64,000 nucleotides of DNA, taken from assembly GCF_001083805.1 (NCBI RefSeq), contig NZ_JXSK01000005.1, forward strand, positions 186,001-250,000, read 5' to 3'. The translations under genes and the position numbers were made by a program. Under the pieces are notes generated by a model. It ran no database searches, was not told where the DNA came from, and saw only the letters and a list, made by a program, of their open reading frames with translations. Below are positions 25,150 through 48,089 of this stretch, piece after piece. The stretch's first letter is position 1. The number at the start of each line of letters is the position of its first letter. The DNA is from Photorhabdus luminescens subsp. luminescens. Its GTDB lineage: Bacteria; Pseudomonadota; Gammaproteobacteria; Enterobacterales; Enterobacteriaceae.

Positions 25150-25498
25150 GAGATAGATTTGTATACATTTGTAAACTTCAAAGATAATACCACAGAAATA
25201 TTTCAATAATCCACTCTTTTTATCCCAATATGCAAAAACATTACACTTCTTTCGTTACTTTAGCGAAATTTCTGTTCTTTATTTTATGATAAGGAAAGAA
25301 AATATCCTTAAAATTTGCAAAATAACCATATGTTATCTCTGTATCGCTCTGTTTTTGCACAGAAAAATTTTTATTTCTCAATTGTCAAAATGGTCCTAAT
25401 TGGCAAATATTTGTACAGCTAGATGTCTCTGTTTATCAAAACGTGATGCACGAGTTTGAACCGGACTTTAGTTAAGTAGTTAAAAAGAGATTAATGAA

Positions 25499-26125: not shown

Positions 26126-26142
26126 TTATTGATTCAATAACC

Positions 26143-26172
26143 AGCCTGAGGAACTTCTCTTCAGGCTTTTTT
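26143..26172 (+). terminator. Intra-operon terminator/attenuator between madA and madB
   Basis: Stem AGCCTGA / TCAGGCT (26143-26149 with 26161-26167) followed by six T. Partial read-through here would set a high madA to madB-K ratio, a common device in fimbrial operons. Confidence 0.75.
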
Positions 26173-26242
26173 GGTTGCAAATCCTGGATGATTGAAACGG
26201 TGTTTTATAAACCTCTATTGGCTGAGTGAAAAGAGAAAAGTA

Positions 26243-26992: not shown

Positions 26993-27596
26993 AGCCGATA
27001 TCTCAAGGATTCAGCGTCTACGCGGGTACCTGAATTACATCGGCATAGGAGGAATTCTGTGGCTCTCTTCGGGTCCCTTGTGGGCAGCGAATTCTGCCAT
27101 CGCCACATTTAAGGCCGACATTGCCTACGGAACGTGTGATGTCACGGTGGATAACAATAATATCGATCTGGGCAAAGTGCAATTTGCCAGCTTGGTATCA
27201 GGGAACGCCTACGGGGAAACCAATCTCACTCTGAGAAATTGCTCAGATGTGATCGATGCAAACAGGGTTGCTCCTGCGATTACCATTACCGGAGAGCATT
27301 TTGGTACAAATGATAACACGCTGTTTCGTAGTCAAAACAGCGAAGATTCGGTTTCAAAGGCCGTGGGCGTCACGGTGCGCTTGAAGAAGCTTAATGGAAC
27401 GGAGTGGTCCTCAAATATAGCGGATGGTGAACCATTTTATCTGGCGGATAAAGGCACAGTCATAAACGATCAAACTCCTTCTGTGCCGGTGAGATTTTCA
27501 CTGGTATGCGCCCCGGCAGCCGGGGAGACGGTAATGGTCTGTAAAAAGCCAGGAAAAATCTATGCCAACGTGAATTTTACATTTGATTATCGTTGA
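26976..27596 (+). CDS. madC: Minor fimbrial subunit
   Basis: About 206 residues from ATG 26976 (MVKFSKADISRIQR), chosen over 26961 because GGAGAG lies at the right distance. An unusually long positively charged n-region precedes the hydrophobic stretch (YLNYIGIGGILWLSSGPLWA). The mature part has paired cysteines (YGTCDVTV and RNCSDV) and ends VNFTFDYR, a donor-strand type C-terminus. It overlaps madB, so translation is coupled. Likely a minor or adaptor pilin. Confidence 0.78.
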   Translation: MVKFSKADISRIQRLRGYLNYIGIGGILWLSSGPLWAANSAIATFKADIAYGTCDVTVDNNNIDLGKVQFASLVSGNAYGETNLTLRNCSDVIDANRVAPAITITGEHFGTNDNTLFRSQNSEDSVSKAVGVTVRLKKLNGTEWSSNIADGEPFYLADKGTVINDQTPSVPVRFSLVCAPAAGETVMVCKKPGKIYANVNFTFDYR

Positions 27597-27657
27597 GTTT
27601 GCAGCGCGATTCATTAACAGAAGAGTTGTAAACGAGTGAGTTTAAGGTGAACACAAA

Positions 27658-28356
27658 GTGATAAGGCAAGAAAAAAACAGAGTGGGCGACCAACAAGCTT
27701 TTCTGAGTAATGGCGGCTGCTCGACGTTGCGTATGGTGATGCTCCGGTTTTGTTGGGGGGTTATGTTAGCTGCGCTGTTCTTGGCAGGCAGCGTTATGGC
27801 TGAATCCGAAGATGCTAAACCCCCTCCAATCCCATCGACGCAATCGAGTGGGATAAACGTAAATCTGTTCGTAACTGTTGTGCCTGAACCTTGTGACGTA
27901 GGGATCAGTGGTGGCGATATAAGTGGTTCGGAGTTGAATTTTGGTTCGCTGTTAGCGGCAGAGTTCAGTTATGCAGGGTATGTATCACGTTCCAAGACAT
28001 TTAATCTGGAATTAACCAATTGTGGCGATCCGGATTCTGCACCGAACGGACCCGCTCTCACTGTGTCAGGGAACACCATCGACGCTGAACATGTTTCAAT
28101 ATTTCGTGATCCCGATGATAGCGTCTCTGAGGGGTTGGGGTTTATTTTTCACTTAGGACCAGAAGGGAACATAAATCTGGATAGTGATTTGGTAATAAAT
28201 AATCGTGAGAATCCCCTCTCTTACCCGCTAGTTGAATTTGAGGATGGTCGTGCTCTGCTTCCGGTAACGGTAGCGGTTGCACGTGGAAAAGATATTAAGG
28301 TTATTCGACCTGGCCCATTAGTTGCGCGAGTCGCATTTACCTACTCTTATCCGTGA
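27658..28356 (+). CDS. madD: Minor fimbrial subunit
   Basis: A 232-residue pilin-like protein opening at GTG 27658. A long n-region precedes the signal core (FCWGVMLAALFLAGSVMA). Mature features are EPCDVGISGG, LTNCGDP and the C-terminal VAFTYSYP strand. A later ATG just before the hydrophobic core is an alternative start. Similar layout to the neighbouring minor pilins. Confidence 0.75.
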   Translation: MIRQEKNRVGDQQAFLSNGGCSTLRMVMLRFCWGVMLAALFLAGSVMAESEDAKPPPIPSTQSSGINVNLFVTVVPEPCDVGISGGDISGSELNFGSLLAAEFSYAGYVSRSKTFNLELTNCGDPDSAPNGPALTVSGNTIDAEHVSIFRDPDDSVSEGLGFIFHLGPEGNINLDSDLVINNRENPLSYPLVEFEDGRALLPVTVAVARGKDIKVIRPGPLVARVAFTYSYP

Positions 28357-28414
28357 GATGCGGTTTATCACGGATGATAAATATGGGGACAATTGAGGGG
28401 AAGCGGAGAGTTAA

Positions 28415-29083
28415 ATGAAAGCGAAAAATAACACTCTTATAAACCGTGAGTTAATAACATGTCACAGCAGAGCGAAATATTCGTGGCTCATCATGATACT
28501 GATTGGATGGAGTATCGGTTGTGTGGCTTGGTCGGTTCAGGCGAATGGTAAGAATAATATTGAGATCACAATTAAAGGCAATCTGTTGCGTCCGACCTGT
28601 GCGTTGAGTGTGAACGGCGAACACCCTGACATTCTGTATCGCCGTAGTATGCCTCAGGTCTATGCTAGTGAACTCAGAAATAGCAAATATGTGGAACGCT
28701 CTGCCTTAGACTTGAAATTCCAGCTTAGTCACTGTAGTCCAGGTCAATCGCCAGCTTTGTACATATGGAGCAGGGATGCTAGCAACTCAGATGATTCGGA
28801 ACTGTTCATGCCCGTAGATGGTGGTACTACTAAAGGAGTGGGGATTAGGCTATTGGACGTTAGCACCAATCAGTTTGTTAAGGTGAAACCTATTAATGAT
28901 CCGTTTCAAATGCCGCTACCGTCTGTGGGGGATGGAACAACGAGGACGTTCCGGGCTTATGTGGGTGGTTTAGGCGACAAAAATAATCCAGCAACGTGTA
29001 AAAGTGACGGTACCAATGTGTTATGCGGAGGAACTGCGAATGTGCAGATACATTTTGAGTTTTCCTATGAGCATTTGAAGTAG
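28415..29083 (+). CDS. madE: Minor fimbrial subunit
   Basis: A 222-residue protein with a long n-region and hydrophobic core (WLIMILIGWSIGCVAWSVQA). The mature part starts near NGKNNIEITIKGNLLRPTCAL, the hallmark of pilin N-terminal extensions followed by the first cysteine. It ends VQIHFEFSYEHLK. It could be an adaptor or tip-proximal subunit. Third minor pilin in a row. Confidence 0.75.
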   Translation: MKAKNNTLINRELITCHSRAKYSWLIMILIGWSIGCVAWSVQANGKNNIEITIKGNLLRPTCALSVNGEHPDILYRRSMPQVYASELRNSKYVERSALDLKFQLSHCSPGQSPALYIWSRDASNSDDSELFMPVDGGTTKGVGIRLLDVSTNQFVKVKPINDPFQMPLPSVGDGTTRTFRAYVGGLGDKNNPATCKSDGTNVLCGGTANVQIHFEFSYEHLK

Positions 29084-29139
29084 ATAGCGTTATAAGCCGG
29101 GTGTATTTGAGGAGTAGTGTCTGAGATGAAGTGGGATAT

Positions 29140-29877
29140 ATGAAAAAGCTGATAATCATGGGAATGCTGGGGATATGGGCGGTTATGGCGTCGTCGTCAG
29201 CACACGCAGGTCTTATGTTGAGGAAGACACGTATTATTTATCAGCAGGGCGACAAGGTGCAAAGCATCTCACTGCAAAATTCAGGCGAAAAGGTCTATCT
29301 GGTACAAGCTGCGGTGACGCCGTGGGATAACCCGAATACTCGTTCATCGGAGTTTACTGTGCTGCCCCCGTTGTTCCGTATGGAGGGCAATAGCTTGAAT
29401 GTGATGCGGGTTATGCGTACCGGTGGTGATTTCCCTAATGATCGCGAGTCTCTGTTTCGTTTTCGCATTAATGCGATCCCGTCGAAGAAAACAGTTGATG
29501 ACAGCAAGGAAAATAGCAGCGGCAAACAAGATGAGATTGGCGCGTCGCTATCTATCTCGTTGGGTATGAACATTAAACTTATCTACCGGCCGGATAAACT
29601 GCCGATGACGCCGGAACAGGCCCGTAGTCGGCTGACGTTTACACGAGCAGGCAATAGTGTCGTAGTGACCAACCCAACGCCGTATTACCAGACTTTTGCC
29701 CAACTGAAACTCGACGGCAAGGCGGTGAATTTTGACAAGGCTCCGTCAATATTGGTCCCTTTCGGCCAGACCACTTTTCCCCAGGCGGGCAAAGCTGGCA
29801 GTGAGGTGGAATGGTCGATGATCACCGATATCGGCGGGGTGAGTAAGTTACAGAGCAGTACGTTACAAGCTGGCTGA
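29140..29877 (+). CDS. madF: Periplasmic fimbrial chaperone (PapD-like) 2
   Basis: A 245-residue chaperone starting at MKKLIIMGMLGIWAVMASSSAHA; a GTG nine bases upstream is less likely. PapD features: MLRKTRIIYQQGDKVQSISLQN, LPPLFRMEGNSLNVMRV, FPNDRESLFRFRINAIP near residue 95, and MNIKLIYRP in the loop before domain 2. It differs clearly from the first chaperone. Confidence 0.87.
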   Translation: MKKLIIMGMLGIWAVMASSSAHAGLMLRKTRIIYQQGDKVQSISLQNSGEKVYLVQAAVTPWDNPNTRSSEFTVLPPLFRMEGNSLNVMRVMRTGGDFPNDRESLFRFRINAIPSKKTVDDSKENSSGKQDEIGASLSISLGMNIKLIYRPDKLPMTPEQARSRLTFTRAGNSVVVTNPTPYYQTFAQLKLDGKAVNFDKAPSILVPFGQTTFPQAGKAGSEVEWSMITDIGGVSKLQSSTLQAG

Positions 29878-29906
29878 GTATATTTTGAGAATTGGAAGAG
29901 CATCAC

Positions 29907-30701
29907 ATGGCGGAGCGTAAGGTTTCAATAAAGCTGAGGGTGACGTCTGTGTTATGCGCTCTGGCAATGATATCGCCGGTTTTACCACTGAGGGCGGAAG
30001 AGAGTCTGATGGGGGCGTTATATGTCAATGATGCCCGTGTGCTTTACCTTGAATCATTCAACAATGGCGTTCCTTCAACATTCATTAATAACAGCGACGG
30101 TAATTATCTGATTCAGTCAACGGTACGGGAATTGGACCCTGCGACCGGTTTACCGCTGGATATTAAGGCGCCATTTATCGTGATTCCGCCTATTGCCAAG
30201 GTGGATGCGCATGAACGGCAGGTGCTGAAAATCCTGCGTACCGGTGGAGATTTTCCTAAGGATCGGGAATCTCTGTTCTTTCTGAATGTGCGTATGTTGC
30301 CTTCTGAGAAACCATCATCGGTATCTAAAGGTTTCTCAGGCAAGGTGAAAATGACGACGGCTTTAGCGGTGAAGGTGTTCTATCGTCCTGAAGGATTGCC
30401 AAAAGAGGGCGTTGCCGGCGCAGTGAAACAATTAAGCGCGTCAGTAAAAGAGAGTGTTGTAACGCTGACTAATCCGTCACCGTTTTGGATAACGTTTCAG
30501 GCTTTACATGTAAGTTCGTTTGCCGTACCGGAGCAGAATTTATTTAGGATGGTGCCGCCATTTGGTCAGCAGAGCTGGTCACTGCCGGTGGGCAAAATGT
30601 CTCCTGGTAATAATGTCACGATATCGTGGCGTGCTATTGATGAATTCGGCTTAGGCACCGATGAAGAGAGTCGATCTATTACTGTATCTGGCAGTGGTTA
30701 A
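29907..30701 (+). CDS. madG: Periplasmic fimbrial chaperone (PapD-like) 3
   Basis: A 264-residue chaperone starting at ATG 29907, with GGAAGAG at the right spacing; the TTG at 29892 is not needed. Signal peptide ends near LPLRAEE. Core features are LYVNDARVLYLES, FIVIPPIAKVDAHERQVLKILRTGGDFPKDRESLFFLNVRMLP and a VFYRPEGL loop. It is the third chaperone in one operon, which usually has one or two, so each may serve a subset of subunits. Confidence 0.86.
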   Translation: MAERKVSIKLRVTSVLCALAMISPVLPLRAEESLMGALYVNDARVLYLESFNNGVPSTFINNSDGNYLIQSTVRELDPATGLPLDIKAPFIVIPPIAKVDAHERQVLKILRTGGDFPKDRESLFFLNVRMLPSEKPSSVSKGFSGKVKMTTALAVKVFYRPEGLPKEGVAGAVKQLSASVKESVVTLTNPSPFWITFQALHVSSFAVPEQNLFRMVPPFGQQSWSLPVGKMSPGNNVTISWRAIDEFGLGTDEESRSITVSGSG

Positions 30702-30801
30702 TAACTGGTTAATAGCAAATATGGTTAATAACAAATGTGGCTCATAGCAATATTACAGATACCGACAGAGTAGATATGAGTTAAATATATTTAAATAAGA
30801 G

Positions 30802-33552
30802 ATGGCGATTTTAATAATGAAAATGTTAATTCCGGTGATAAATTGCTGTATAGAACGGCCGCCTATTTATCATCGTGTAAATCAAAATATTTCTATTTCT
30901 CTGGTTCTATCAAAGTGTCCGGTGAAATTACGCCTTGCTCTGGTTTTCTGTCGGATGGTGCTGGCGTTCCTGACTGGGTGGAGTGTTCAGGCGATAGGGC
31001 GTGATTATTTTGACCCGGCTTTATTGGACTTTGGTTCGAATTCAGGGCAATCGGTGGATTTATCGCAGTTTGAAACTGCTGGAGGTCAGGCGCCAGGGAC
31101 TTATCGGGTAGACATTTACGTGAATGGGACTTTTTTTGATTCACGGGATATTACGTTCCAGCGTAATGGCGACAGCGAGCTGGTTCCGGTACTTACCCCA
31201 GATTTGTTAGAGACCGCCGGTGTCAATATCAGCGGCACGCCGGCATTAAAAACGTTGCCGGCGGATAAGCCGATAGATAGCCCGTTAGATAAATTTATTC
31301 CCCAGGCTACGGCCCGCCTCAACTTTTCCCAGATGCGGTTAAATTTGAGTATCCCCCAAATAGCGATGAAGCCTTCAGCCAATGGTCAGGTTGATCCGAA
31401 GTTATGGCAAGAGGGCATCCCGGCTTTTATATTGAATTACAGTATTAATGGCAGTCAGAATCGACGTTCACAGTTTGGTAATAAACAGGCTAATCAGAGC
31501 TTATTCGGTAGCTTCAATTCTGGATTGAATCTGGGGGCTTGGCGTCTTCGTAACACGGCGACCTATTCTTATAGTACTCAAACTTATAACCGGTATGACT
31601 CACTTAATGACGCAATGAAAAAAACCACTCAATCCCAGCAAAGATGGAACTTCCTGCAAACCTATTTGCAGCGGGATGTGGTGGCGTTACGCAGTGATCT
31701 GACGATAGGGGATACTTCGACCGGCAGTGTGGCGGGTCAGGTATTTGATGGTTTCCCCTATCGTGGGATTGGGCTGGCCACCAGTGATTCGATGATACCG
31801 GGTAGGCAGAGTGGTTTTGCGCCGATTATCAGCGGGATAGCTAAATCTAATGCTCAGGTGACGGTGACGCAAAATGGCAGTGTGGTTTATCAAACCAATG
31901 TCGCGCCAGGTCCATTTCGTATCACAGATTTGGTGGGTAGCAGTACCGGCGGGGATTTGCAGGTAACGATAACCGAGGCTGATGGTACCCATCATGGGTT
32001 CAGTCAGGCTTATTCTAGCCTGCCGATGATGTTGCGGCAGGGTCAATTCAAGTATGAAGCGGCAGCAGGGCGCTATCACAGTAGTGGGTATAGTAGTGGC
32101 GGGCATAAGCCAGTATTCGGCATGGTCTCCATGATCTATGGTCTGCCCGGCAATGTCACGTTATACGGTGGTGGTTTGGCGGCGCAATCGTACCAGTCCG
32201 CAGCGCTGGGGACCGGGCTTTCCCTTGGTATGATGGGGGCGTTATCTGCGGATATCACCACTTCTCGGGCCAGATTGAAAAATATGGCTGATATCCAGCG
32301 CGGAGAATCTTACCGCGCTAAATATTCGAAAAGTATGCTGACCTCTGGCACGACGGTGGATTTAACTGCGTACCGCTATTCCACACGTAATTACCTTAGT
32401 TTTTCCGATGTTAATACCCAAGGTTACACGGTTTGGGGGGAAATCCCTTCCTGGATGTCTCAACGACGTCGTAGCAGTTGGCAAATGAGATTGAGTCAGT
32501 CATTGCCGGGTAACTATTCCCTGTGGCTCAGCGGCCAGCGGGATAACTACTGGGGCAGTTCTAAAACTAACACCACTCTGTCGATGGGATTGAATGGTTC
32601 TTTCTACCGTGTGGGCTGGGGACTCAACTACAGCATTGATCGCATACGCGGCGACGGCGACTGGCCTGAGAACCGGCAAGTTTCGTTGAACGTCAACATT
32701 CCTCTCAGTCTGTTCGGCTCCTATGCGGCGCTGAACAATGCCTACGCCAATTATAGCTTGTTCCATGATAGTACCGGGCGCAGCAGTAACCAGTTAGGTT
32801 TGGGCGGTTCATTGCTGGATGACAATAGTCTGTCTTGGAGCGTATCGCAAAGTCAGGCGAATAAAGGGCAGGGGAACAGCGGGTCAGTGTCAATGGGATA
32901 CCGTGGCTCCCTTGGGCAGGCCAGCTTGGGATACAACTACGATTCATCGGGAGGGCGAGGTGTGAACTACGGGGTTAGTGGCGGATTGATCGCCCATCAG
33001 CATGGCGTCACTTTGGCATCGCGTATTGGTGATGCTGCGGTATTGGTGCGGACCTCGGGGGTTGGCGGTATTCGTGTGATGAACTCCGACTCGATTTCGA
33101 CTAATCGCTGGGGATATGCGGTGGTGCCTTATGCTCAGACGTACAGCCGTAATAGTATCAGTTTAGATCCGTCATCGTTGCCGGAGGGGGCCGATATGGC
33201 ACAGGGTAGCAAGAACGTATTCCCGACTAAAGGGGCGGTTGTGATGGTGGATTACCCCGTGCGTATCGGGCAGCAATTGCTGATGAATTTGCTCTATCAC
33301 GGTAAACCGGTACCGTTTGGAGCAATGGCGAGGCTTAAAGGGGATACAGAAACAAACCTGGCGGCGATAGTCGGGGAGGGTGGACAAGTGTACCTGAGCG
33401 GCATGCCTCCCAACGGGGTACTCAAAGTGAAGTGGGGCAGCGCGCCGGATAGTCAATGCGAGGTGGTGTTTAACCTGGGGCCTCCTCCGGTAAATGCGAA
33501 AAAAGATAAGAGCTGGAGTCCCATGAGGCAATTGAACGAAACCTGCCGTTAA
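30802..33552 (+). CDS. madH: Outer-membrane fimbrial usher (FimD/PapC-like)
   Basis: A 916-residue usher, slightly longer than usual because of a 50-residue N-terminal segment before the mature start (YFDPALLDFGSN, the canonical usher N-terminus). It carries the N-terminal chaperone-binding domain (DIYVNGTFFDSRDITF), the 24-strand barrel with plug (GSVVYQTNVAPGPFRITDL near residue 360) and a C-terminal domain ending near CEVVFNLGPPP. It secretes and assembles chaperone-bound subunits. Internal ATGs at 30817 and later are alternative starts. Confidence 0.93.
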   Translation: MAILIMKMLIPVINCCIERPPIYHRVNQNISISLVLSKCPVKLRLALVFCRMVLAFLTGWSVQAIGRDYFDPALLDFGSNSGQSVDLSQFETAGGQAPGTYRVDIYVNGTFFDSRDITFQRNGDSELVPVLTPDLLETAGVNISGTPALKTLPADKPIDSPLDKFIPQATARLNFSQMRLNLSIPQIAMKPSANGQVDPKLWQEGIPAFILNYSINGSQNRRSQFGNKQANQSLFGSFNSGLNLGAWRLRNTATYSYSTQTYNRYDSLNDAMKKTTQSQQRWNFLQTYLQRDVVALRSDLTIGDTSTGSVAGQVFDGFPYRGIGLATSDSMIPGRQSGFAPIISGIAKSNAQVTVTQNGSVVYQTNVAPGPFRITDLVGSSTGGDLQVTITEADGTHHGFSQAYSSLPMMLRQGQFKYEAAAGRYHSSGYSSGGHKPVFGMVSMIYGLPGNVTLYGGGLAAQSYQSAALGTGLSLGMMGALSADITTSRARLKNMADIQRGESYRAKYSKSMLTSGTTVDLTAYRYSTRNYLSFSDVNTQGYTVWGEIPSWMSQRRRSSWQMRLSQSLPGNYSLWLSGQRDNYWGSSKTNTTLSMGLNGSFYRVGWGLNYSIDRIRGDGDWPENRQVSLNVNIPLSLFGSYAALNNAYANYSLFHDSTGRSSNQLGLGGSLLDDNSLSWSVSQSQANKGQGNSGSVSMGYRGSLGQASLGYNYDSSGGRGVNYGVSGGLIAHQHGVTLASRIGDAAVLVRTSGVGGIRVMNSDSISTNRWGYAVVPYAQTYSRNSISLDPSSLPEGADMAQGSKNVFPTKGAVVMVDYPVRIGQQLLMNLLYHGKPVPFGAMARLKGDTETNLAAIVGEGGQVYLSGMPPNGVLKVKWGSAPDSQCEVVFNLGPPPVNAKKDKSWSPMRQLNETCR

Positions 33553-33683
33553 GATGAGGCGGAATGTTGTGGGTCTGCGCTGATAACCTGATGCAGAAAA
33601 CCATAGTTATTAGAGGCATAGTTATTAGAGGGGAACCTCTGAAAGGTAAGTGTAATCTGGCCGGGATGGAGTGATATCAACGA

Positions 33684-35015
33684 ATGAAAATTTCTAATAT
33701 AGCAACCGGGAAGTTACTCCCGGTTGGGCAGCCGATGAATACGAAGAGTAAGACGTTTATTAACAAGTTAAAACAGGATATTGGTTGGATGGCGGTTTGT
33801 TGTCGTAAGTGGCCGATATGGGTGGCAATGATATGTTTATCTGTGGTGGCTATCTTTTCTTCTCCCTCAGTGTTTGCCGAGTCACTAAATTGGAACGCTG
33901 ATACGACCTTGAAAGTCTTGGGGCCTGAGCGGATGGTAAAGCGCAGTGATGGAGTAATCACTTACCCGGCAGCGGGTAAAGCGACATTAGATGTGTTTCC
34001 GTTTTATAGGAAGAGGATAGCGAGTAAAACCACCTCGTATGATCAGAAATTTCTGGAGGATGTCCGGTTCCAGCTCAGAGCAGGGCGCGGGGAAATTTTT
34101 AAAGTCCCTAGAGTGGTGTCAGGCAGTTACGAATGTACAATTATAGCTAAATCTCATTATTACCATACTAAGCATCCTATTGAAGGAACAGCCATTCAAC
34201 ACTTTACGGTGAGTCTTGATAAGCCATACCCCAATGAAAATCTTTCTCAACCATTATATTTCCAGCCGGAAAATCCTAATAATCAGGATGATAAGAATAT
34301 AGCAGAGGGAAGGATAAGCGACCTCGATTTTGATGTGTCCTGTCGTGGGGTAAATTTTTCATGGCAGCGAAATCCTGATGAAAAAGTCGCATTTGATAGT
34401 GACGATAACGCACCGATTTTGAGTATTTTGGCTGATGGAGAGGAGTTCATGTCGTGGTCCAAACCACGCTTTCCGCCTATCAAAGATCCGGTAACAGTAC
34501 TGGACCCGCCGGTTTGCGGTTTAGATGTTGGCGTTGCTTATAATGTAATGAATATGGGAGAGGTACTCCGGTCGCCCGGGCCATATCCGGCACAGCTCCC
34601 AATAGGTGAATTCAGCGGGTCTGATGGACTTTTTCCTATGAACATTACATGCACGGTGAGCGATAAGAATAAGGCCGGAGGAGTGGCCACTTTGCAGTTT
34701 TCCGCCCCACAGCTAGCTGATAATAATGAAAGTATCGTAGTGCCTGACTTCGATAATGCGTTGAGGATTAAAGTGGTACCGACATTGATAGGCGGGAATA
34801 CTCAGTTGGCGGCGCCAAACGTGAAAGACAAGCCAGTAAAATTTGGTCCTCCAACTAACCCGGCGGATGTTCTGTACTTTACTGTGGGTGATACGCCAAA
34901 CACCTATGTCTCTCAAAACCAATTTAATGTGCAACTTTGGCAAGTAAAGGCGTTAAACCCGGGTACTTATGGTGAATTTCAGACCACTATGAACGTAACG
35001 TTAGTCGTGCGATAA
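33684..35015 (+). CDS. madI: Two-domain fimbrial tip adhesin
   Basis: A 443-residue protein. A long N-terminal extension (MKISNIATGK.., second Met at 18) precedes the signal core ending SVFAES near residue 68. Residues about 70-270 form a putative lectin domain with RAGRGEIFKVPRVVSGSYECTI and VSCRGVNFSWQRNPDEK. From PPVCGLDVGVAYNV (about 273) to the end is a pilin domain closing TTMNVTLVVR. Adhesins of this form sit at the fimbrial tip and bind the host receptor, here presumably in the nematode gut. The N-terminal half is the parent type of the stand-alone proteins at 40154 and 41921. Confidence 0.82.
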   Translation: MKISNIATGKLLPVGQPMNTKSKTFINKLKQDIGWMAVCCRKWPIWVAMICLSVVAIFSSPSVFAESLNWNADTTLKVLGPERMVKRSDGVITYPAAGKATLDVFPFYRKRIASKTTSYDQKFLEDVRFQLRAGRGEIFKVPRVVSGSYECTIIAKSHYYHTKHPIEGTAIQHFTVSLDKPYPNENLSQPLYFQPENPNNQDDKNIAEGRISDLDFDVSCRGVNFSWQRNPDEKVAFDSDDNAPILSILADGEEFMSWSKPRFPPIKDPVTVLDPPVCGLDVGVAYNVMNMGEVLRSPGPYPAQLPIGEFSGSDGLFPMNITCTVSDKNKAGGVATLQFSAPQLADNNESIVVPDFDNALRIKVVPTLIGGNTQLAAPNVKDKPVKFGPPTNPADVLYFTVGDTPNTYVSQNQFNVQLWQVKALNPGTYGEFQTTMNVTLVVR

Positions 35016-39862: not shown

Positions 39863-40153
39863 ATAAAATATCACATAAGTTGAGATATTTTGCGAATGAA
39901 AGTAATTGAAAGAGTAACATGAACAAGTAAGCGGATAATATGATTAAGTGTGAGCGATATTGGTGTTGATTTCTCATTTGAAGTTTTGAGTTATCGTTTT
40001 TAATTTTTATTAGCAAATCAGTATAATAACTGGAATTAAATATTCTGATATTTCAGATTAATAGCAAATAAGATGAATGATAACTCGGTCTATTATCTGT
40101 ATTGCTTGGATATTCAACCGGGGATTGCTCCCCGGCTGTTTTATTAATGATCT
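39863..40153. other. Intergenic stretch with a GC-rich hairpin
   Basis: No gene seen. A stem CCGGGGA / TCCCCGG (40118-40124 with 40129-40135) lies just downstream of the minus-strand adhesin-like gene, with a twin at 41885-41902 behind its paralogue. These are likely 3' ends of the two transcripts, though the T-runs are weak. Confidence 0.45.
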
Positions 40154-41065
40154 TTATTGATTATTGCTATCCGCTTTTCTCTTCCAGGGGAGATTATCTG
40201 GGTTATCTTGGGAGACTGATTTCTTCGGGTTAGCATTTTCCGCACTCGTTGGTCTCAGGACGGCCGGGTCTTTAAACTTATCATTTGGATTATCGTCTGG
40301 CGGCGTCCAGAAAGCGACATTATGAATCCAATGGCAGTTGTCTTGCATCTCAATTGACGGCACTCCGTTTTCCCACTTACTTTCCCATTCAAATTTCTCG
40401 TCGGGTTTACGTTCCCATGAAAATCCAGCCCCTTTGCAGGTTGCTGTGTAAACCAGGTCTGTCACGCTAGATTCCATGACGTTTTGGTCTCCCTTGAACC
40501 AGTAGATATCACGATTCGGAACGATAGCATCCGTATAAAGGTTTGCTGTGGCTCGCCCGGGCGCTCCATCTTTACGTTTGGCAATCATCTTACAGTGATA
40601 CATACCTGTGACTGCATGTGGAACCTTGAAGATTCTGTTTTGTGCTCTAACCCAAAACATGGCGTCTTTTAACATCAACTCTCCGGTCGGCGTTGGAAAA
40701 TCATAATCAACTACTGGTGGAAAGACACCCACTAAGTTAGTGGACCCCCTTGCTGGGTAATGAACCGGCTTACCTTGGTTGTCTTTCCCATTGATGATTG
40801 GCTGCCCGAGAGCTTTGAATAGGACTTCTGGGTCCCAGGGGGGAGTCGCAGGGTACCCTAGGTCTTTTACGGGTTCTTTAGGGCATTCAGTAACGGCCAA
40901 TACCGAGGTGGAAAACAGCGCCCCGATAGACGCGCACATCACCCATGTCGACCACCGGCGATTTCGACCAACATTCTGCTTCACTCTGTTGATGAACGTT
41001 TTTTCAGTATTCATCGGATACTCTGACGGGGAGTGTTCCCCGGTTGGCATGTTAAAAATTTTCAT
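40154..41065 (-). CDS. MadI-like adhesin-domain protein without a pilin domain, copy 1
   Basis: A 303-residue secreted-type protein. The N-terminus (MKIFNMPTGEHSPSEYPMNTEKTFINRVKQ, signal core ending SVLAVTE near residue 59) parallels MadI. Shared core features are NRIFKVPHAVTGMYHCKMIAK near residue 143, SSVTDLVYTATCKGAGFSWERKPDEK near 200 and FWTPPDDNPNDKFKDP near 255. MadI continues with a pilin domain at this point; this protein ends in a short polar tail. It cannot be polymerised by donor-strand exchange, so it may be a free or surface-retained lectin. Ligand unknown. Preceded by the duplicated leader. Confidence 0.75.
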   Translation of the reverse strand: MKIFNMPTGEHSPSEYPMNTEKTFINRVKQNVGRNRRWSTWVMCASIGALFSTSVLAVTECPKEPVKDLGYPATPPWDPEVLFKALGQPIINGKDNQGKPVHYPARGSTNLVGVFPPVVDYDFPTPTGELMLKDAMFWVRAQNRIFKVPHAVTGMYHCKMIAKRKDGAPGRATANLYTDAIVPNRDIYWFKGDQNVMESSVTDLVYTATCKGAGFSWERKPDEKFEWESKWENGVPSIEMQDNCHWIHNVAFWTPPDDNPNDKFKDPAVLRPTSAENANPKKSVSQDNPDNLPWKRKADSNNQ

Positions 41066-41600
41066 TCTCTGTGATAACCCTGTCCCGGCCAGATTGCATT
41101 GGCCTTTTAAGGGTCCTCCTTCTTTAAATGATTATTTTCTGCATCGGATTACCCGTGCAGGCCGTTATTACAGATTGCATTCATATAAGGGTATTGCTGG
41201 AACTTATGTTTGAGGAGAAATCGTCTTGATTCATATTACCCTCCTAAATTTAAGGTGGTATTGGATTGACCTTTTTTACCCACAGGGGAGCTTATACCGT
41301 AGAACTGAATCCCTTGCGGATTACGCTGATTTTCTATTGCGACTAATTAAGACATAAATAAGTTTAGCAACTCTTTTAAAAAAAGATAATAGAAAAAGCA
41401 AAAGATTAAAAAAATGTGATAACTAATAGTTATCGGTTGATAACTATAGGTTAACGCTACAGTTGATTGTTTTAAGATTATTTCCCATAGGTAGATGATA
41501 AGAGTGACAATAATGAGATTTAGGCGGGAGAATTTAGAGGGGATATACATATTTTTGGCTATTATTACTTGAATGAGTAACTTAATTGACTAACAATTAA
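41066..41600 (-). repeat. Duplicated leader region ahead of MadI-like copy 1
   Basis: Two blocks joined. The gene-proximal block (41066-41240) is nearly identical to 42833-43001 and similar to 45186-45355; close to the gene it also resembles the madI upstream segment (AATCTGGCCGGGA). The distal block (41240-41600) is the RCC1-family leader in inverted orientation. The junction carries the first codons of an RCC1-like gene (see 41181-41234). Confidence 0.75.
41181..41234 (-). other. 17-codon leader micro-ORF, relic of an RCC1-like start
   Basis: Behind TAGGAGGGTAAT the minus strand reads MNQDDFSSNISSSNTLI then TGA. This matches the MNQNDDFSLN starts of the RCC1-like proteins. It may be translated, as its ribosome site is strong, but is probably a relic of the fusion event. 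Confidence 0.6.
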
Positions 41601-41920
41601 TTGTAAGAAAAGAAATAGGGGGTTGTTAAGTTGTTTTCGTAATATCCGATCTGTGTGGCTTATAAAAACTTAGTTATTTTGAGATTTTTAATATTTATTT
41701 TTCAAACTATTTCGTAAAGTTATTGTCTTTTTGGATTTATTTGGCAGTTGATTATTGGTAATAACAGCGGGCGGGTGAGTTGATATTTAAAACGGAATAA
41801 GCGATGGGTTGAACCGGGTATTATGGTTTAGCCTTGGTTTTCGTGTTTTTTAGTCACTCCTAATAACAACTATTGCGTGCTCAACCGGGGATTGCTCCCC
41901 GGCTGTTCTGTTAACGATTT

Positions 41921-42832
41921 TTATTTATTGCCGCTATCCGCTCTTTTCGTCCCGGATAAATTATCTGGATTATCATTGGCATCTGATTTCTTCAAGTCAG
42001 CACGTTCCGTAGCGGTTGGTCTCATGACGGCAGGGTCTTTAAACCGATCATTTGGATTGTCGCTTGGTGGCGTCCAGAAAGCAACATTATGAACCCAATT
42101 GCAAAGGTCTTGCATTCTAATTAACGGCACCGAGTTGTCCCACACACTTTCCCATTCAAATTTCTCTTCGGGTTTACGCTCCCATGAAAATCCGGTCCCT
42201 CGGCAGATTGCTGTGTAAACCAGATCTGTCACGCTAGATTCCAGAACATTTTTGTCTCCTTGAAACCTGTGGATTAGATGATTTGCAACGACAGCATCTG
42301 TCTCAAGGGTTGCTGTGGCTCGCCCGGGCGCTCCATCTTTACGTTTGGCAATCATCTTACAGTGATACTTACCTGTGACCACATGTGGAACCTTGAAGAT
42401 TCTGTTTGGGGCGCTAACCCAAAACAGACCGTCTTTTAACTTTAAATCGCCTGTCGTCGTTGGAAACTCATGATGGATTACTGGCGGAAAGATATCCGCT
42501 AAGTTAGCGTGCCCCCATTCCGGGTAAATAATTGGCTTACCTTGGTTGTCTTTACCATTGATGATTGGCTGTCCGAGAGATTTGGATATGTATTCTGGGT
42601 CCCAGGGCGGGGAAGCAGGGTACCCTAGGTCTTGTATTGGTTGATCAGGGCATTTAGTAGCGGCCAATACCGAGGTGGAAAAAAGCGCCCCTATAAATAC
42701 GCACATCACCCATGCTGGCCAGCGGCGATTTCGACCAACATTCTGCTTTACTCTGTTGGTGAACGCTTTTTCAGTATTCATCGGATACTCTGACGGGGAG
42801 TGTTCCCCGATTGGCATATTAAAAATTTTCAT
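41921..42832 (-). CDS. MadI-like adhesin-domain protein without a pilin domain, copy 2
   Basis: A 303-residue close paralogue of the gene at 40154, aligning end to end without gaps by eye. The same signal region (SVLAATKC), core motifs (NRIFKVPHVVTGKYHCKMIAK, ICRGTGFSWERKPEEK) and polar tail are kept. Differences cluster between residues 60 and 140 and around 175-195. Its promoter/leader is also duplicated. The pair is a tandem duplication of about 1.8 kb including the leader. Confidence 0.75.
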   Translation of the reverse strand: MKIFNMPIGEHSPSEYPMNTEKAFTNRVKQNVGRNRRWPAWVMCVFIGALFSTSVLAATKCPDQPIQDLGYPASPPWDPEYISKSLGQPIINGKDNQGKPIIYPEWGHANLADIFPPVIHHEFPTTTGDLKLKDGLFWVSAPNRIFKVPHVVTGKYHCKMIAKRKDGAPGRATATLETDAVVANHLIHRFQGDKNVLESSVTDLVYTAICRGTGFSWERKPEEKFEWESVWDNSVPLIRMQDLCNWVHNVAFWTPPSDNPNDRFKDPAVMRPTATERADLKKSDANDNPDNLSGTKRADSGNK

Positions 42833-43400
42833 TCTCTGTGATAACCCTGTCCCGGCCAGATTGCATTGGCCTTTTAAGGGTCCTCCTTCTTTAAATGATT
42901 ATTTTCTGCATCGGATTACCCGTGCAGGCCGTTATTACAGATTGCATTCATATAAGGGTATTGCTGGAACTTATGTTTGAGGAGAAATCGTCTGGATTCA
43001 TATTATGCTCCTAAATTTAAGGTGGTATTGGATTGAGCTTTTTTACCTACAAGGGAGCCTATACCGTAAAACTTAATCCCTTGCGGATTACTCTGATTTT
43101 CTATTGCGGCTAATAAGACATAAATAAGTTTAGCAATTCTTTAAAAAAAAGATAATAGAAAAAGCAAAAAATTAACAGAATGTGATAATAAAAGATTATC
43201 AGTCTATAACTATTGATTAACGCTAAAGTTGATTGTTGATGGTGGTTTTTAAGCTCATTTTTACAGGTAAATGATAAGAGTAATAATAATGAGATTTAGG
43301 CAGAAGAATTTAGAGGGGATATACATCTTTATGGCTATTATTACTTGAATGAGTAACTTAATTAACTAACAATTAATTGTCAGGTAGGAAATAAAATATT
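42833..43400 (-). repeat. Duplicated leader region ahead of MadI-like copy 2
   Basis: Second copy of the composite leader described at 41066-41600, with the same order of blocks. The gene-proximal 160 bp is almost unchanged between copies, more conserved than the coding regions look. Confidence 0.75.
42948..43001 (-). other. 17-codon leader micro-ORF
   Basis: Reads MNPDDFSSNISSSNTLI then TGA, one codon changed (Gln3 to Pro) from the copy at 41181. Ribosome site GGAGCATAAT is retained. Confidence 0.55.
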
Positions 43401-43490
43401 GTTAAGTTGTTGTCTTTTGAACGTGATTTGAAAGTTGATGTTGGTAATAATAGGGAATAGGTAAGTTGATATTTAAATGGAATAAACGAT

Positions 43491-43524
43491 AGGCTGAACC
43501 GAGGTATTATGGCTCAGCCTTGGT
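43491..43524 (-). terminator. Terminator of the MadI/RCC1 hybrid gene
   Basis: Inverted repeat AGGCTGAACC / GGCTCAGCCT (43491-43500 with 43511-43520), the minus-strand counterpart of the structures after the RCC1-like genes at 16860 and 20158. Confidence 0.55.
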
Positions 43525-43559
43525 TTTCGTGCTTTTTAGTCATTCATAATAACAAGGGA

Positions 43560-45185
43560 TTAATCATCATATTCGCTATGTACTATATGATCCCCCATAT
43601 CCAACAGATCCCAGGCTACTCTTTGGCCATTTGCCCGTAAAACGGTGAATGCGCTGCTGGATGCACCTAGGCTGATGATATCTTGTAGTCGGGCTACTCC
43701 AGGTGGTATCTGGATATTAAGTTCTTTGAACCCCCAAGCGACCACGCTACCATTTGCCCGTAGAGCCGCGAAAGCATAATGACCTCGTGAGGAATCATCA
43801 AGATCGGTTGAACTCAGGCTGACGATATCCTGTAATTTGGCAATCTCAGGAGGGACACTGATAGTACCCCAGGAGACCACACTGCGGTCTGCCCGTAGGG
43901 CTATGAATGTGGTTCTTGATGAGTATAGGCTGACAATATCTTTTAATGCGGCAATTTCGGGTGGAATCTGACCACCAGAGCTTGGCTCCCCCCAGGCGAC
44001 GACACTGCGATCTGTACGTAAAGCGGCGAAAGCGCCATTTGTCGCACTTAGACTGATAATATCCCGTAATGCGGCGATTTCTGGTGGGACTTGGCCGCCA
44101 TAGTCTTGATGTCCCCAAGCGACTACGCTGCGGTTTGCCCGCAGGGCGGCTAAAGCATGATTTGTTATACTTAGGTTGGTAATATCTTGCCATTTTGCAA
44201 TTTCAGGAGGTATCGAATATCCGGGCCAGGTGACTACTGTGAGGTCTGCTCGCCGGGCGATGAAAGTATTATTTATTACACTCAGATTGATAATATCCTG
44301 TAATTTGGCAATATCGGGCGGAACTCGGACTTTTCCCCAAGAAACCACGCTGCCGTTTGCCCTAAGGGCGGTAAAGGTATCATTTGTGAAGCTATATAGT
44401 ATATTCATTTTGTACTTGCCACGGTTGTCATCTCCGCAAGAGTATTGATTATGGTCTGGCCACCAGGCTGCACAGACATGATCCGAAAGGTTATGTATTG
44501 AATTTATGCTTATAATGTCCTTTAATTCAGCAATTTCTGCTGGTAATTTGCCGCCATATTTCTGATCTCCCCAAGCGACTACACTACCGTCTGCCCGTAG
44601 GGCAGAGAAAGCATAATTCGTTGAACTCAGGCTGACAATATCCTGTAATTTAGCAATTTCTTCTGGAAGAGTGCCGCCATACCTCTCATCTCCCCAAGCG
44701 ACCACGCTACGGTCTGCCCGCAGGGCTGCGAATGCATAACCTGTTGAACTCAGGCTGACGATATCCTGTAATTTGGCAATTTCTGGCGGTATAGAGCCGC
44801 CGCCGCCCTCATCTCCCCAGGCGACTATTCTGCCATTTGTTAATAACATGGCGGTTGCGGTGTAAGTAGAGGTGATGGAGGCCTTGTTGTCTTTCCCATT
44901 GATGATTGGCTGCCCGAGAGATTTGAATATGTATTCTGCGTCCCAGGGAGGAGTCGCGGGGTACCCTAGGTCTGGTGTTGGTTTACTGGGGTATTCAGTA
45001 GCAGCCAATACCGAGGTGAAAAAAAGCGCCCCGATAGATACGCACATCACCCATGCCGACCGCCGGCGATAGCGAACCGCTATTCGGCCAACACCCTGCT
45101 TTACTCTATTGATGAACGTTTTTTCAGTATTCATCGGATATTCTGACGGGGATTGCTCCCCGGTTGGCATATTAAAAATTTTCAT
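43560..45185 (-). CDS. Hybrid protein: MadI-like signal/N-terminus fused to RCC1-like repeats
   Basis: A 541-residue chimera. Residues 1 to about 98 match the MadI-like proteins (MKIFNMPTGEQSPSEYP, signal core ending SVLAATE, then SLGQPIINGKDN). At KASITSTYTATAMLLTNGR the sequence switches to the RCC1-like type and runs through about ten repeats to the usual VHSEYDD end. The lectin core of MadI is absent. One repeat is disrupted near residues 205-245 (HVCAAWWPDHN). The fusion gives an RCC1-like protein a secretion signal that the other copies lack. Function unknown; export to the surface or medium is the inference. Confidence 0.8.
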   Translation of the reverse strand: MKIFNMPTGEQSPSEYPMNTEKTFINRVKQGVGRIAVRYRRRSAWVMCVSIGALFFTSVLAATEYPSKPTPDLGYPATPPWDAEYIFKSLGQPIINGKDNKASITSTYTATAMLLTNGRIVAWGDEGGGGSIPPEIAKLQDIVSLSSTGYAFAALRADRSVVAWGDERYGGTLPEEIAKLQDIVSLSSTNYAFSALRADGSVVAWGDQKYGGKLPAEIAELKDIISINSIHNLSDHVCAAWWPDHNQYSCGDDNRGKYKMNILYSFTNDTFTALRANGSVVSWGKVRVPPDIAKLQDIINLSVINNTFIARRADLTVVTWPGYSIPPEIAKWQDITNLSITNHALAALRANRSVVAWGHQDYGGQVPPEIAALRDIISLSATNGAFAALRTDRSVVAWGEPSSGGQIPPEIAALKDIVSLYSSRTTFIALRADRSVVSWGTISVPPEIAKLQDIVSLSSTDLDDSSRGHYAFAALRANGSVVAWGFKELNIQIPPGVARLQDIISLGASSSAFTVLRANGQRVAWDLLDMGDHIVHSEYDD

Positions 45186-45420
45186 TCTTTGTGATAACCC
45201 TATTCCGGCCAGATTGCCTTGGCCTTTTAAGGGCGCTCCTTAATTTAGATGATTATTTTCTGCATCGGGTTATCCGTGCAGGCCATCATTACAGATTGCA
45301 TTTATATAAGAGTATTGCTGGCACTTATGTTTGAGGAGAAATCGTCTTGATTCATATTACCCTCCTAAATTTAAGGTGGTATTGGATTGACCTTACCCAC
45401 AGGCAGTCTGTACCGTAAAA
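45186..45420 (-). repeat. Leader region ahead of the hybrid gene
   Basis: Third copy of the gene-proximal MadI-like leader, carrying a micro-ORF. The distal RCC1-type promoter block is cut short here because the collapsed RCC1-like gene at 45440-45691 follows at once, so expression may depend on that gene's promoter. Confidence 0.7.
45302..45355 (-). other. 17-codon leader micro-ORF
   Basis: Reads MNQDDFSSNISASNTLI then TAA. Same element as at 41181 and 42948, ahead of the hybrid gene. Confidence 0.55.
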
Positions 45421-45439
45421 CCTCTGCTCAATGGATTAA

Positions 45440-45691
45440 CTAGTAGTCGTATTCATAATGTAATTTATTATCATCAGTCGAACCCCAGCCAACTTTCTGA
45501 CCATCGTTACCTTCGTTGTTGTTTCCCCAGGCGATTACTCTGCCATTTGGTAATAACATGGCGGTTGCCCCTCTGGTAGAGGCGATAGGCGTATTATTAT
45601 CAGCGTGACTACTCCTGTTTGGTTGCCAATATTGTTTTATCGGATTACCGCCAGTATCTATGTTTAGTGAGGGATCGTTATTTTGATTCAT
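45440..45691 (-). pseudogene. Collapsed RCC1-like gene
   Basis: Eighty-three residues join the N-terminal module (MNQNNDPSLNIDTGGNPIKQ .. AMLLPNGRVIAWGN) directly to the C-terminal tail (GQKVGWGSTDDNKLHYEYDY). All internal repeats are gone and the frame is intact. This is what recombination between repeats would leave. It keeps a full leader and a TTAGGAGAACAAT ribosome site, so a short product may still be made. Confidence 0.75.
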
Positions 45692-46341
45692 ATTGTTCTC
45701 CTAATGATGGTGATATCGGATTGACCTTTTTACCCACAGGGGAATTTATGCCATAAAACCTATCCTTTGCGGGTTAAGCTGATTTTATATTGCAACTTAG
45801 AGAGAGGTTATCGGCTAATAACTTTAGGTTAATACTAAATTGATTTTTTGGTAGTTGGTTTTAGATTATTTTTTATCGATAAGTGATGAAGGTTAAAATT
45901 ATGAGGCTTGAACGACGGAATTTAGAGGAAATGTACATCTTTATGGCTACTAATTAATACGTGAATATGTAACTTAATTTACTAAGTATTAATTGTAAAG
46001 CAAAGAGTAAAAATCACCAGGGTGATGGTTGTAATATTTTATTCTAAATTGTTTGGTGGAGTTATTTCATTTTGATATTTATTTAAAGGTTTATTTTGTT
46101 AATGACAGAGGGAGATGAAATTAAAAATTAATATGTGATAGGCTGAGTCCTTATATTTGGTTAAGTCATTGATTAATAGTTCGTAATAACAAAATATTAC
46201 TTAGTAAATTAACTAATCGTATCGTTATGTGCTTTGGTATCGAGGCTTTTCCTGCTAACTCTCCGTTGTTCACCCGCAAGGCTGCTACAAAAGAAAACAA
46301 ATATGAAAAACCCCCGAAAGATGTTTTTCATATCGTTTGGA
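45692..46341 (-). repeat. RCC1-family leader and spacer to the HigBA pair
   Basis: Bases 45692-46030 are the inverted counterpart of 16990-17414 (CTTAGTAAATTAAGTTACAT, AAAGATGTACAT, CCTGTGGGTAAAAAGG). From 46030 to 46341 I see no gene. Confidence 0.6.
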
Positions 46342-46620
46342 TTAAGTTGTTTTGAAGCCAAAATGCAGTTCACAATTGCAAGCTTTGGCGTAGTTCAATA
46401 GTGTCTTAAGTGTTGGGTTTCCATTTCCTTTTTCAAGCCTGGAAATATTCGCTTCTTTTGTTCCCATACGCTGTGCAACTTGATTTTGAGTTAAACCAGC
46501 AGCATGCCGCATGCGTAATAGAGTATTAATTAGTTCGAATTCTGGTTCTAGCGCATCATACTCAGCTTTTACATCTGGGTTAGCTAATGCTTTGGATTTT
46601 AGAGACTTTAAGCTACTCAT
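46342..46620 (-). CDS. XRE-family antitoxin (HigA-like)
   Basis: A 92-residue protein with a clear XRE helix-turn-helix (LRMRHAAGLTQNQVAQRMGTKEANISRLEKG, residues 35-65). It overlaps the upstream toxin gene by four bases, so translation is coupled. It should neutralise the toxin and repress the promoter before it. Toxin-first order is typical of HigBA. Confidence 0.88.
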   Translation of the reverse strand: MSSLKSLKSKALANPDVKAEYDALEPEFELINTLLRMRHAAGLTQNQVAQRMGTKEANISRLEKGNGNPTLKTLLNYAKACNCELHFGFKTT

Positions 46621-46952
46621 TTTGTAACCTCTTTCATTCGTTCATAAGCGAGATCAAGATCCTTTTTAGATATCTTCTGGTTTTTCTTAATAAACGCATG
46701 AAGGACAATGATATTTGGACCTTGTAGGTAGCAAAACAATCCGCGTCCAATACCTTCTTGCGCTTTGGCTCGAATCTCGAATAGGCCTTTTCCCATTGGC
46801 TTAGTGTGTGGCTCTCCAAGATTAGCGCCATATTCTTCAATAAGCTCAAGCAGTTTTAGCATACGTGCCTGAATTCCGGGTGGCATATCTAGGATCACAC
46901 CCTCGACACCATCATAGAACTCAATGTTCCAGTTCATATTCAATATTGCCAT
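46617..46952 (-). CDS. Gp49-like/RelE-superfamily toxin (HigB-like)
   Basis: A 111-residue toxin of the phage-derived Gp49-like group: WNIEFYDGVEGVILDMPPGIQARMLKLLELIEEYG, then GLFEIRAK, RGLFCYL and VLHAFIKKNQKISKKDLDLAYERMKE. Members cleave mRNA or block translation. All of the family's landmarks are present, so it appears intact. Confidence 0.87.
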   Translation of the reverse strand: MAILNMNWNIEFYDGVEGVILDMPPGIQARMLKLLELIEEYGANLGEPHTKPMGKGLFEIRAKAQEGIGRGLFCYLQGPNIIVLHAFIKKNQKISKKDLDLAYERMKEVTK

Positions 46953-47397: not shown

Positions 47398-47721
47398 TCA
47401 GGTGTTCGTTATGATGGCATCGAGGGCTGAGATAATTTCATTTCTGGATGAGGCTACGTTGCATACAAAATCTGATTTGTTGATTTTTTTTGCATCCAGA
47501 AACGTTATTGCCGGTGTAAATATATAATAACTATTATTATTAATGACCACCTGAGGGGTGATTCTTTTCTGGTTGAGGCTAATGTCATTTTTAGATACCA
47601 GAGGAACAATAATCCTTGTTGTTAAATCATCAAAATAATCATTCTGGATAATAAGGTAAAACGGCCAAAGCCTGTTTGTTTTGGCCGATGGATTACGATA
47701 CACATCAAATTGCTGTGGCAT
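47398..47721 (-). CDS. ccdB: CcdB-type gyrase toxin
   Basis: A 107-residue CcdB family protein (MPQQFDVYRNPSAKTN at the start, RIIVPLVSKN near residue 38, TPQVVINNNSYYIFTP). CcdB poisons DNA gyrase. It follows ccdA with a one-base overlap (TAATG). The C-terminus ends ALDAIITNT, whereas the classical F-plasmid toxin ends in WGI, so gyrase poisoning should not be assumed. Confidence 0.85.
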   Translation of the reverse strand: MPQQFDVYRNPSAKTNRLWPFYLIIQNDYFDDLTTRIIVPLVSKNDISLNQKRITPQVVINNNSYYIFTPAITFLDAKKINKSDFVCNVASSRNEIISALDAIITNT

Positions 47722-47969
47722 TACAGGCTCCCGAAAAATTCATCGTCTGTGAGCATTCCAGCTTTCGCCATGAATATGTTCATAGCCTGCATATCTTCTT
47801 TCTCTTTCTCTCTCTCATCCTGTTTAGCTTTTATAGCCTGCGCCAGAAGAATATCTAGTGTTGCTGAGAGATTCATGTCCATACTATGGGCTTTATCGAC
47901 CAGTGAAGCCGTCAGGTACACGTTGGTGCTTCTTTTGGTGCTGTTACGGGGAGAGGTAACGGTATTCAT
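47721..47969 (-). CDS. ccdA: CcdA-type antitoxin
   Basis: An 82-residue antitoxin. The start is placed at MNTVTSPRNSTKRSTNVYLT (47969), close to the usual CcdA length; an upstream ATG at 48032 adds 21 non-homologous residues. The N-terminal ribbon-helix-helix binds the operator and the C-terminal DDEFFGSL segment binds CcdB. First gene of the module. Confidence 0.85.
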   Translation of the reverse strand: MNTVTSPRNSTKRSTNVYLTASLVDKAHSMDMNLSATLDILLAQAIKAKQDEREKEKEDMQAMNIFMAKAGMLTDDEFFGSL

Positions 47970-48089
47970 GGTGTTTACTCCTATGCGCAAAGGTATGCGC
48001 ATAAGTATGATGGGTAACGGAAAAACAATCAAGTATCCTGCTTCTTGAAAGACTTAGAATTTAATTATTAATTGCAATGCAATAAATAG

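Follow-up and report, generated by a model that had tools for sequence, protein, structure and literature searches.

A conserved Photorhabdus hybrid gene joins a MadI-type 5′ end to an RCC1-like repeat domain near the mad fimbrial operon

We analyzed a 64,000-nt stretch of the genome of Photorhabdus luminescens subsp. luminescens, a bacterium that associates with insects and nematodes (contig NZ_JXSK01000005.1, positions 186,001–250,000; hereafter, the window), which carries a cluster of four minus-strand genes at 40154–45691: two pilin-less MadI-type genes, a MadI/RCC1 hybrid, and a collapsed RCC1-like gene. The cluster lies past spoT and gmk and is encoded on the other strand from the mad fimbrial operon; these two genes adjoin it in 16 of 17 loci from 14 genomes, the exception (L109) being a second piece of a genome already counted. 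The hybrid, in which a MadI-type gene start leads into RCC1-like repeats, is the main subject of this analysis. The parts of the cluster and the related genes of the window are listed below.

40154–41065 (−): MadI-type protein 1 (P0001), 303 aa; predicted signal peptide, adhesin domain, no pilin domain
41921–42832 (−): MadI-type protein 2, 303 aa; adhesin-domain protein
43560–45185 (−): hybrid, 541 aa; MadI-type residues 1–101, RCC1-like repeats 102–541
44883–45185 (−): MadI-type part of the hybrid; likely signal peptide plus about 40 mature residues
44886–44891 (−): 6-bp stretch within the hybrid, common to both parent types
44382–44468 (−): hypervariable segment of the hybrid (residues 240–268), from a codon-column comparison
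45440–45691 (−): 83-aa collapsed RCC1-like gene, immediately upstream of the hybrid
17415–18725 (+): 436-aa stand-alone RCC1-like protein, in which no signal-peptide-like stretch was seen
18805–20118 (+): 437-aa stand-alone RCC1-like protein, with ten motifs spaced exactly 41 residues apart
33684–35015 (+): 443-aa protein encoded downstream of the usher in the fimbrial operon, presumably MadI

The hybrid is 77% identical to P0001 across its first 103 residues and 55% identical to the RCC1-like protein P0006 from residue 110 to its end, where it scores 71.6 bits against RCC1_2 (PF13540; curated cut-off 22). The original prediction, made from the letters of the window, had the gene start as MadI and continue as an RCC1-like propeller; both parts are recognizable, yet the adhesin domain is not among them. 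The MadI-type share is confined to the signal peptide and some 40 residues, and the conserved adhesin core is absent; hence, the hybrid is better described as a leader-and-signal (5′-end) exchange than as an adhesin fused to a propeller protein. At the junction, the sequence GACAAC is found in the hybrids of the window and of P. akhurstii, in both un-fused neighbors, and in the four MadI-type genes compared, and the hybrid of the window shares GACAACAA with the un-fused genes at this point.

Intact hybrid frames are present in seven of 14 Photorhabdus genomes (the 12 of a genus search plus P. akhurstii and P. heterorhabditis): that of the window, P. asymbiotica, P. caribbeanensis, P. namnaonensis, P. 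akhurstii, P. noenieputensis, and P. australis. Genome searches did not find it in P. khanii, P. bodei, P. thracensis, P. tasmaniensis, CRCIA-P01, or G007, nor was it found in the 20.8-kb piece that covered P. heterorhabditis. The refuting condition named in the original prediction, absence of the frame from related strains, thus applies to one half of the sample. In a spoT+gmk tree (14 rows, 2736 columns kept; midpoint root for drawing), which reflects the locus and not necessarily the species, hybrid-bearing and hybrid-less genomes form the two sides of one branch (100/100). Moreover, in an RCC1-like tree of 24 chosen rows, the seven hybrid propellers group with the un-fused neighbors of P. 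caribbeanensis and P. akhurstii (100/100). The hybrid therefore looks like one stable fusion across seven species, and while two gene families have indeed exchanged parts, the "shuffling" first proposed would be historical.

The hybrid is also under constraint. Ratios of non-synonymous to synonymous change (dN/dS; pair-summed Nei–Gojobori values over the seven sequences) were 0.19 for residues 1–61, 0.24 for residues 62–101, and 0.33 for residues 102–541. That the frame has been kept intact in several species suggests that it encodes a real and probably exported protein, and conservation and constraint together make for a stronger finding than the first reading. Within the repeats, by contrast, dN/dS reached 1.70 over residues 225–270, and 18 of 29 codon columns of residues 240–268 were non-synonymous, compared with 65 of 411 in the remaining repeats (Fisher p 1.1e-7, which serves as a guide; p 2e-4 for non-synonymous versus synonymous columns). 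Cys238, just outside this segment, and Cys250, inside it, are kept in all seven aligned hybrids; apart from one cysteine in the signal peptide, the hybrid of the window has no others.

A signal peptide at the start of the hybrid is likely, as its hydropathy peaked at 2.25 at the signal position in 12 of 12 rows (seven species, some represented twice). Stand-alone RCC1-like rows peaked at no more than 1.68, with the inspected peaks at or beside the first repeat strand, and hydropathy revealed no hydrophobic stretch ahead of that strand. Signal-less MadI-type genes also exist, two each in P. khanii, P. bodei, P. thracensis, and G007 (0.25–0.96) and one in CRCIA-P01; the MadI-like class of the hydropathy table includes one short RCC1-like row and one MadI fragment. 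Both modules thus occur with and without a signal. The earlier idea of a secreted family accordingly suits those MadI-type proteins that bear a signal, as well as the hybrid, but not, on the face of it, the stand-alone RCC1-like proteins. A comparison within the genus is of relevance here: the PLL lectins are multi-copy, seven-bladed Photorhabdus propellers without a recognized signal peptide, and two were reported in the extracellular fraction (PMC12203525). They resemble the stand-alone RCC1-like proteins in genus, copy number, and lack of a recognized signal; therefore, a missing signal is no proof of a cytoplasmic location for the latter. No sequence relation to the PLL lectins was seen, no lectin being among the 18 (E ≤ 1) or 19 (E ≤ 0.01) matching PDB sequences, although the presence of PLL in the PDB copy is unchecked.

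The RCC1-like module stands alone at 17415–20118, as had been stated, although this range comprises two genes rather than one. RCC1_2 scores were 105.5 and 107.6 bits for P0005 and P0006 and 21.3, just under the cut-off, for the 83-aa gene, which retains both RCC1-type ends and so bears out its description as a collapsed gene; WD40_RLD matches of the hybrid, P0005, and P0006 (70.3 to 137.7) fell below the cut-off of 150. The best PDB match of the family, by sequence and by profile, was BLIP-II: the profile gave E 8.3e-16 for BLIP-II and E 9.4e-5 for RCC1, and single sequences reached at most 63 bits to BLIP-II. Exactly ten motifs, mostly 41 residues apart, were counted in 26 of 45 rows of at least 390 aa and in 26 of 52 distinct stand-alone strings, a count that covers proteins with an MNQ-like start, in which a few genes appear twice owing to alternative starts, and whose pattern undercounts some members; seven of the 52 strings are shorter than 240 aa. 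The product of 18805–20118 is possibly a ten-bladed RCC1-type propeller. BLIP-II has seven blades, and RCC1 seven longer ones. Beyond the repeat number and the hypervariable segment of the hybrid, the stand-alone Photorhabdus forms differ from BLIP-II, a secreted binder (PMC9218822), in having no signal-like start.

RCC1-like matches were found in 11 of the 12 genomes of the genus search, P. tasmaniensis having none, and in 15 of 295 genomes of the family, three of them Photorhabdus. Elsewhere in the Enterobacteriaceae, the module forms the C-terminal end of large proteins of 788–1493 aa (seven seen; for example, 45% identity over P0006 residues 60–354), with Big_1 Ig-like domains in three of the five scanned, whereas in Photorhabdus it mostly stands alone. 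Two 599-aa Photorhabdus proteins (L091:1815–3614 and L095:1783–3582) have a different N-terminal part followed by the RCC1-like module. A phage search with P0006 gave one weak match. Further RCC1-like sequences of the same genome are a 3′ remnant in the window and a stand-alone gene outside it.

16623–16820 (+): 3′ remnant of an RCC1-like gene, by sequence match
C5:355041–356300: further stand-alone RCC1-like gene, outside the window

Short RCC1-like genes recur beside the hybrid. Next upstream of it, P. asymbiotica and P. australis have one of 109 aa; two places upstream, past an un-fused gene, one of 231 aa lies in P. akhurstii and one of 233 aa in P. caribbeanensis. Upstream of the hybrids of P. 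namnaonensis and P. noenieputensis, no such gene was seen. A Fic/DOC-family protein is encoded at 14938–15705, close to the stand-alone RCC1-like genes.

As for the second parent family, the 443-aa protein is called MadI after the original prediction, the name resting on its position in the fimbrial operon. MadI had no informative Pfam or PDB match (its profile gave one chance-level PDB match), and its operon position and size fit a tip adhesin; neither P0001 nor the MadI-type profile matched PDB. P0001 aligned with the N-terminal part of MadI at 32% identity over 261 positions (BLASTP, E 2e-29), and the profile–profile match (probability 100, E 8.5e-46) stopped at about residue 272 of 443. 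A query with the C-terminal part of MadI retrieved MadI orthologues or pieces of them, and neither MadI-type proteins nor the hybrid; hence, the 303-aa proteins correspond to the N-terminal region without a pilin domain, in agreement with the proposal of two stand-alone pilin-less genes. Compared with FimH-type two-domain tip adhesins, they share homology with MadI over its N-terminal ~270 residues and carry its adhesin domain, yet have no detected pilin domain and are encoded outside the usher operon; the hybrid (residues 1–101) is one step further removed, retaining the signal peptide and ~40 residues. The relation of the two modules to MadI and RCC1 holds at the level of sequence, and the folds are predicted on the same basis.

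Both MadI-type genes are intact in all seven hybrid-bearing species. Their mature parts each gave a dN/dS of 0.41, with up to 0.78 and 0.72 over residues 58–130, so that positive selection over the whole mature proteins is unsupported. The closest named match of P0001 was in P. asymbiotica (92%; records nearest the window may be left out). MadI-type matches occurred in 12 of 12 genomes of the genus search and nowhere outside Photorhabdus: the family search matched three of 295 genomes, all Photorhabdus, the class-wide search one of 369, the window's own, and 72,556 plasmid records gave no match to P0001. In MadI itself, the two parts had dN/dS values of 1.76 and 1.58 across four genomes (L076, L078, L080, and L086), two of six pairs tested giving p 0.13 and 0.03, and of 0.44 and 0.60 across the seven hybrid-bearing species. 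A signal-less MadI-type gene, which keeps the first ~16 residues and is intact in four genomes (L103:7581–8252, L107:4116–4790, L105:8220–8894, and L080:15123–15797), reached 2.54; this is driven mostly by pairs with P. khanii (48/529 versus 4/140 sites, p 0.012; 49 versus 3, p 0.004; rounded counts) and is treated as a lead. A second signal-less gene gave 0.36.

The exchanged 5′ end reaches beyond the coding sequence. A leader of about 124 nt, with two conserved hairpin regions, ends at the MadI-type start, and a model of it built on 17 chosen leaders found four matches in this genome, each ending at a MadI-type start codon, that of the hybrid included.

41063–41186 (−): structured leader, ~124 nt, before MadI-type gene 1
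42830–42953 (−): structured leader, ~124 nt, before MadI-type gene 2
45183–45307 (−): structured leader before the hybrid
33548–33686 (+): structured leader before the MadI gene of the mad operon
41181–41234 (−): 17-codon open reading frame (ORF) resembling an RCC1-type gene start (MNQDDFSSNISSSNTLI, then a stop), upstream of MadI-type gene 1
42948–43001 and 45302–45355: similar 17-codon ORFs
41394–41638 (−): upstream region common to MadI-type and RCC1-like genes
43160–43440 (−), 45805–45996 (−), 17080–17287 (+), and 20253–20451 (+): further copies of this region

The same search of this genome found no leader before the two full RCC1-like genes. Across 21 loci, the model gave 67 matches (some loci overlap the same contigs, 17 sequences are the model's own, and weak matches were not all placed). 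Pairing held in 98.0% of 256 pair cells, compared with 21–42% in slid versions, and 16 cells had changed on both sides, against 5.7 in shuffles. Rfam gave nothing above threshold over 39900–46400; the one match, to isrP, fell short of its gathering score and lay apart from the leaders. The leader may be a translational control element.

Farther upstream, the two families share sequence as well. The 17-codon ORF, situated downstream of the shared upstream region, precedes 19 of the 21 genes, hybrid or MadI-type, found in the seven species (both exceptions in P. asymbiotica) and three of 15 MadI-type genes in six other species. The shared region itself occurs at five places in the genome, query included, and in a comparison of 16 upstream regions, many of those belonging to RCC1-like and MadI-type genes proved related; that of MadI-type gene 2, for instance, is 68% identical over 353 bp to that of the RCC1-like gene at 17415. 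In the genome of the window, the madI upstream region matched in the vicinity of its start only, and neither the madA region nor that of the 16623 remnant matched any of the regions compared. The copy at 20253–20451 directly follows the second stand-alone RCC1-like gene, and no ORF of either the RCC1 or the MadI type was found after it. Promoter-like sites were at chance level (14 versus 18.0 in shuffles), terminator-like ones numbered 10 versus 6.7, and NCBIfam and PHROGs searches returned weak or short matches alone.

Taken together, we favor, with confidence slightly above even, an exchange of 5′ cassettes that yielded an exported binding protein. In an ancestor of the seven species, recombination would have joined a MadI-type 5′ end—leader, signal peptide, and ~40 residues—to a signal-less RCC1/BLIP-II-type repeat domain. 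The product is predicted to pass through Sec, lose its signal peptide, and bind outside the cytoplasm, possibly to a host or nematode surface, with the conserved repeats serving as scaffold and the likely contact surface provided by the hypervariable segment and its two conserved cysteines, which may form a disulphide. The 303-aa proteins would likewise be exported adhesin domains acting as free or cell-bound binding domains, since, for want of a pilin domain, the usual donor-strand route into the pilus is closed to them. A wider version, which we hold tentatively and well short of even, has the locus exchanging delivery cassettes and binding modules, with the hybrid an exported, perhaps ten-bladed propeller with a hypervariable loop that is controlled by a previously undescribed leader RNA, shared with the fimbrial tip adhesin, and helps to set which nematode or insect is recognized. 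It draws on the presence of both modules with and without a signal, the many shared upstream regions, and the fast evolution of some putative surfaces.

Several observations weigh against the favored reading or narrow it. The P. caribbeanensis hybrid has GATAAC at the junction, and a 6-bp match is weak evidence for any mechanism. The un-fused pair is nested weakly inside the hybrids of the 24-row tree (80/85), so that gene conversion or a reverse exchange is possible; a single fusion followed by conversion and a later reverse exchange both fit as an origin. The dN/dS values, being pair-summed, are no formal test, and it is because the borders of residues 240–268 were chosen after a 30-codon scan that the p-value given above is a guide. 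As to the leader, its four matches in this genome are all rows of the model, and scoring covered 150 of 2588 first-look candidates. In 422 of 500 shuffles, at least as many pairs had changed on both sides, and all 500 reached the count of further pair types. Signal peptides were judged from hydropathy alone, and as signal-bearing MadI-type rows go as low as 1.53, overlapping the 1.68 of RCC1-like rows, peak height by itself does not separate the classes. Finally, homology, the shared leader, and synteny are what suggest a tie of these proteins to the Mad fimbria.

Might the cluster instead be scrap from tandem duplication and repeat recombination, its hybrid frame surviving by chance? The collapsed gene, the 3′ remnant at 16623–16820, and the ORF-less upstream copy at 20253–20451 do show loss, and repeats of mostly 41 codons stay in frame upon recombining; nevertheless, seven intact hybrid frames at dN/dS 0.19–0.33, and two intact MadI-type genes in each of the seven species, lead us to regard decay as unlikely. 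We attach a shade less weight still to a change in expression alone, whereby the MadI-type leader confers mad-type control and the signal peptide is incidental: the leader does precede all four MadI-type starts found in the genome, but residues 1–61, which include the signal peptide, have the lowest ratio of any part of the hybrid.

Two further explanations start from the propellers rather than the fusion, and we deem either about as improbable as decay. Were the RCC1-like proteins effectors, injected or released to act inside host cells, for example on Ran, the hybrid would be a side branch; this sits poorly with its acquired Sec-type signal, with a profile far closer to BLIP-II than to RCC1, and with ten motifs ~41 residues apart in 26 of 45 rows where RCC1 has seven longer blades. 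It gains from the stand-alone members, which show no signal-peptide-like stretch, and from Legionella, whose RCC1-repeat effectors act on the Ran cycle (PMC7157520). Alternatively, the propellers may inhibit an enzyme or toxin in the manner of BLIP-II, multiple copies being kept to match changing targets, as the closest solved relative, the several genes in most Photorhabdus genomes, and the hypervariable segment of the hybrid would allow; against this stand the lack of a known target, the different repeat number, and the at most 63 bits by which single sequences match BLIP-II.

If the 5′-cassette exchange is correct, a bacterial repeat protein acquired its leader and export signal from an unrelated adhesin and has since been retained across species. 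In the literature searched (Photorhabdus with RCC1, mad fimbria, RCC1 repeat with adhesin), we found no described system of this kind, in line with what had been supposed. The genes form a defined, genus-restricted, and partly fast-evolving set near the Mad fimbria locus, which is required for nematode colonization (PMC9639317, PMC5585154; see also PMC3715494 for mad background), and hypotheses on host recognition can thus be tested by gene removal. That locus is organized as follows.

24505–33552 (+): mad operon; integrase-family recombinase, four Fimbrial proteins, three PapD chaperones, usher
25079–25110 and 25371–25402: 32-nt inverted repeats, 260 nt apart, after the recombinase gene and before the first fimbrial gene

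From the recombinase at 24505, the order runs through the inverted repeats and the fimbrial genes to the 443-aa protein and a CaiF/GrlA-type regulator. An invertible mad promoter has been described (PMC5585154), and the repeats at 25079–25402 fit that description. A copy of this promoter switch in the cluster was considered and rejected, the repeat occurring within the window only at 25085 and 25375. Next to the cluster, we observed two toxin–antitoxin-like pairs, at 46342–46952 (Gp49-like and HTH) and at 47398–48032 (CcdB and CcdA).

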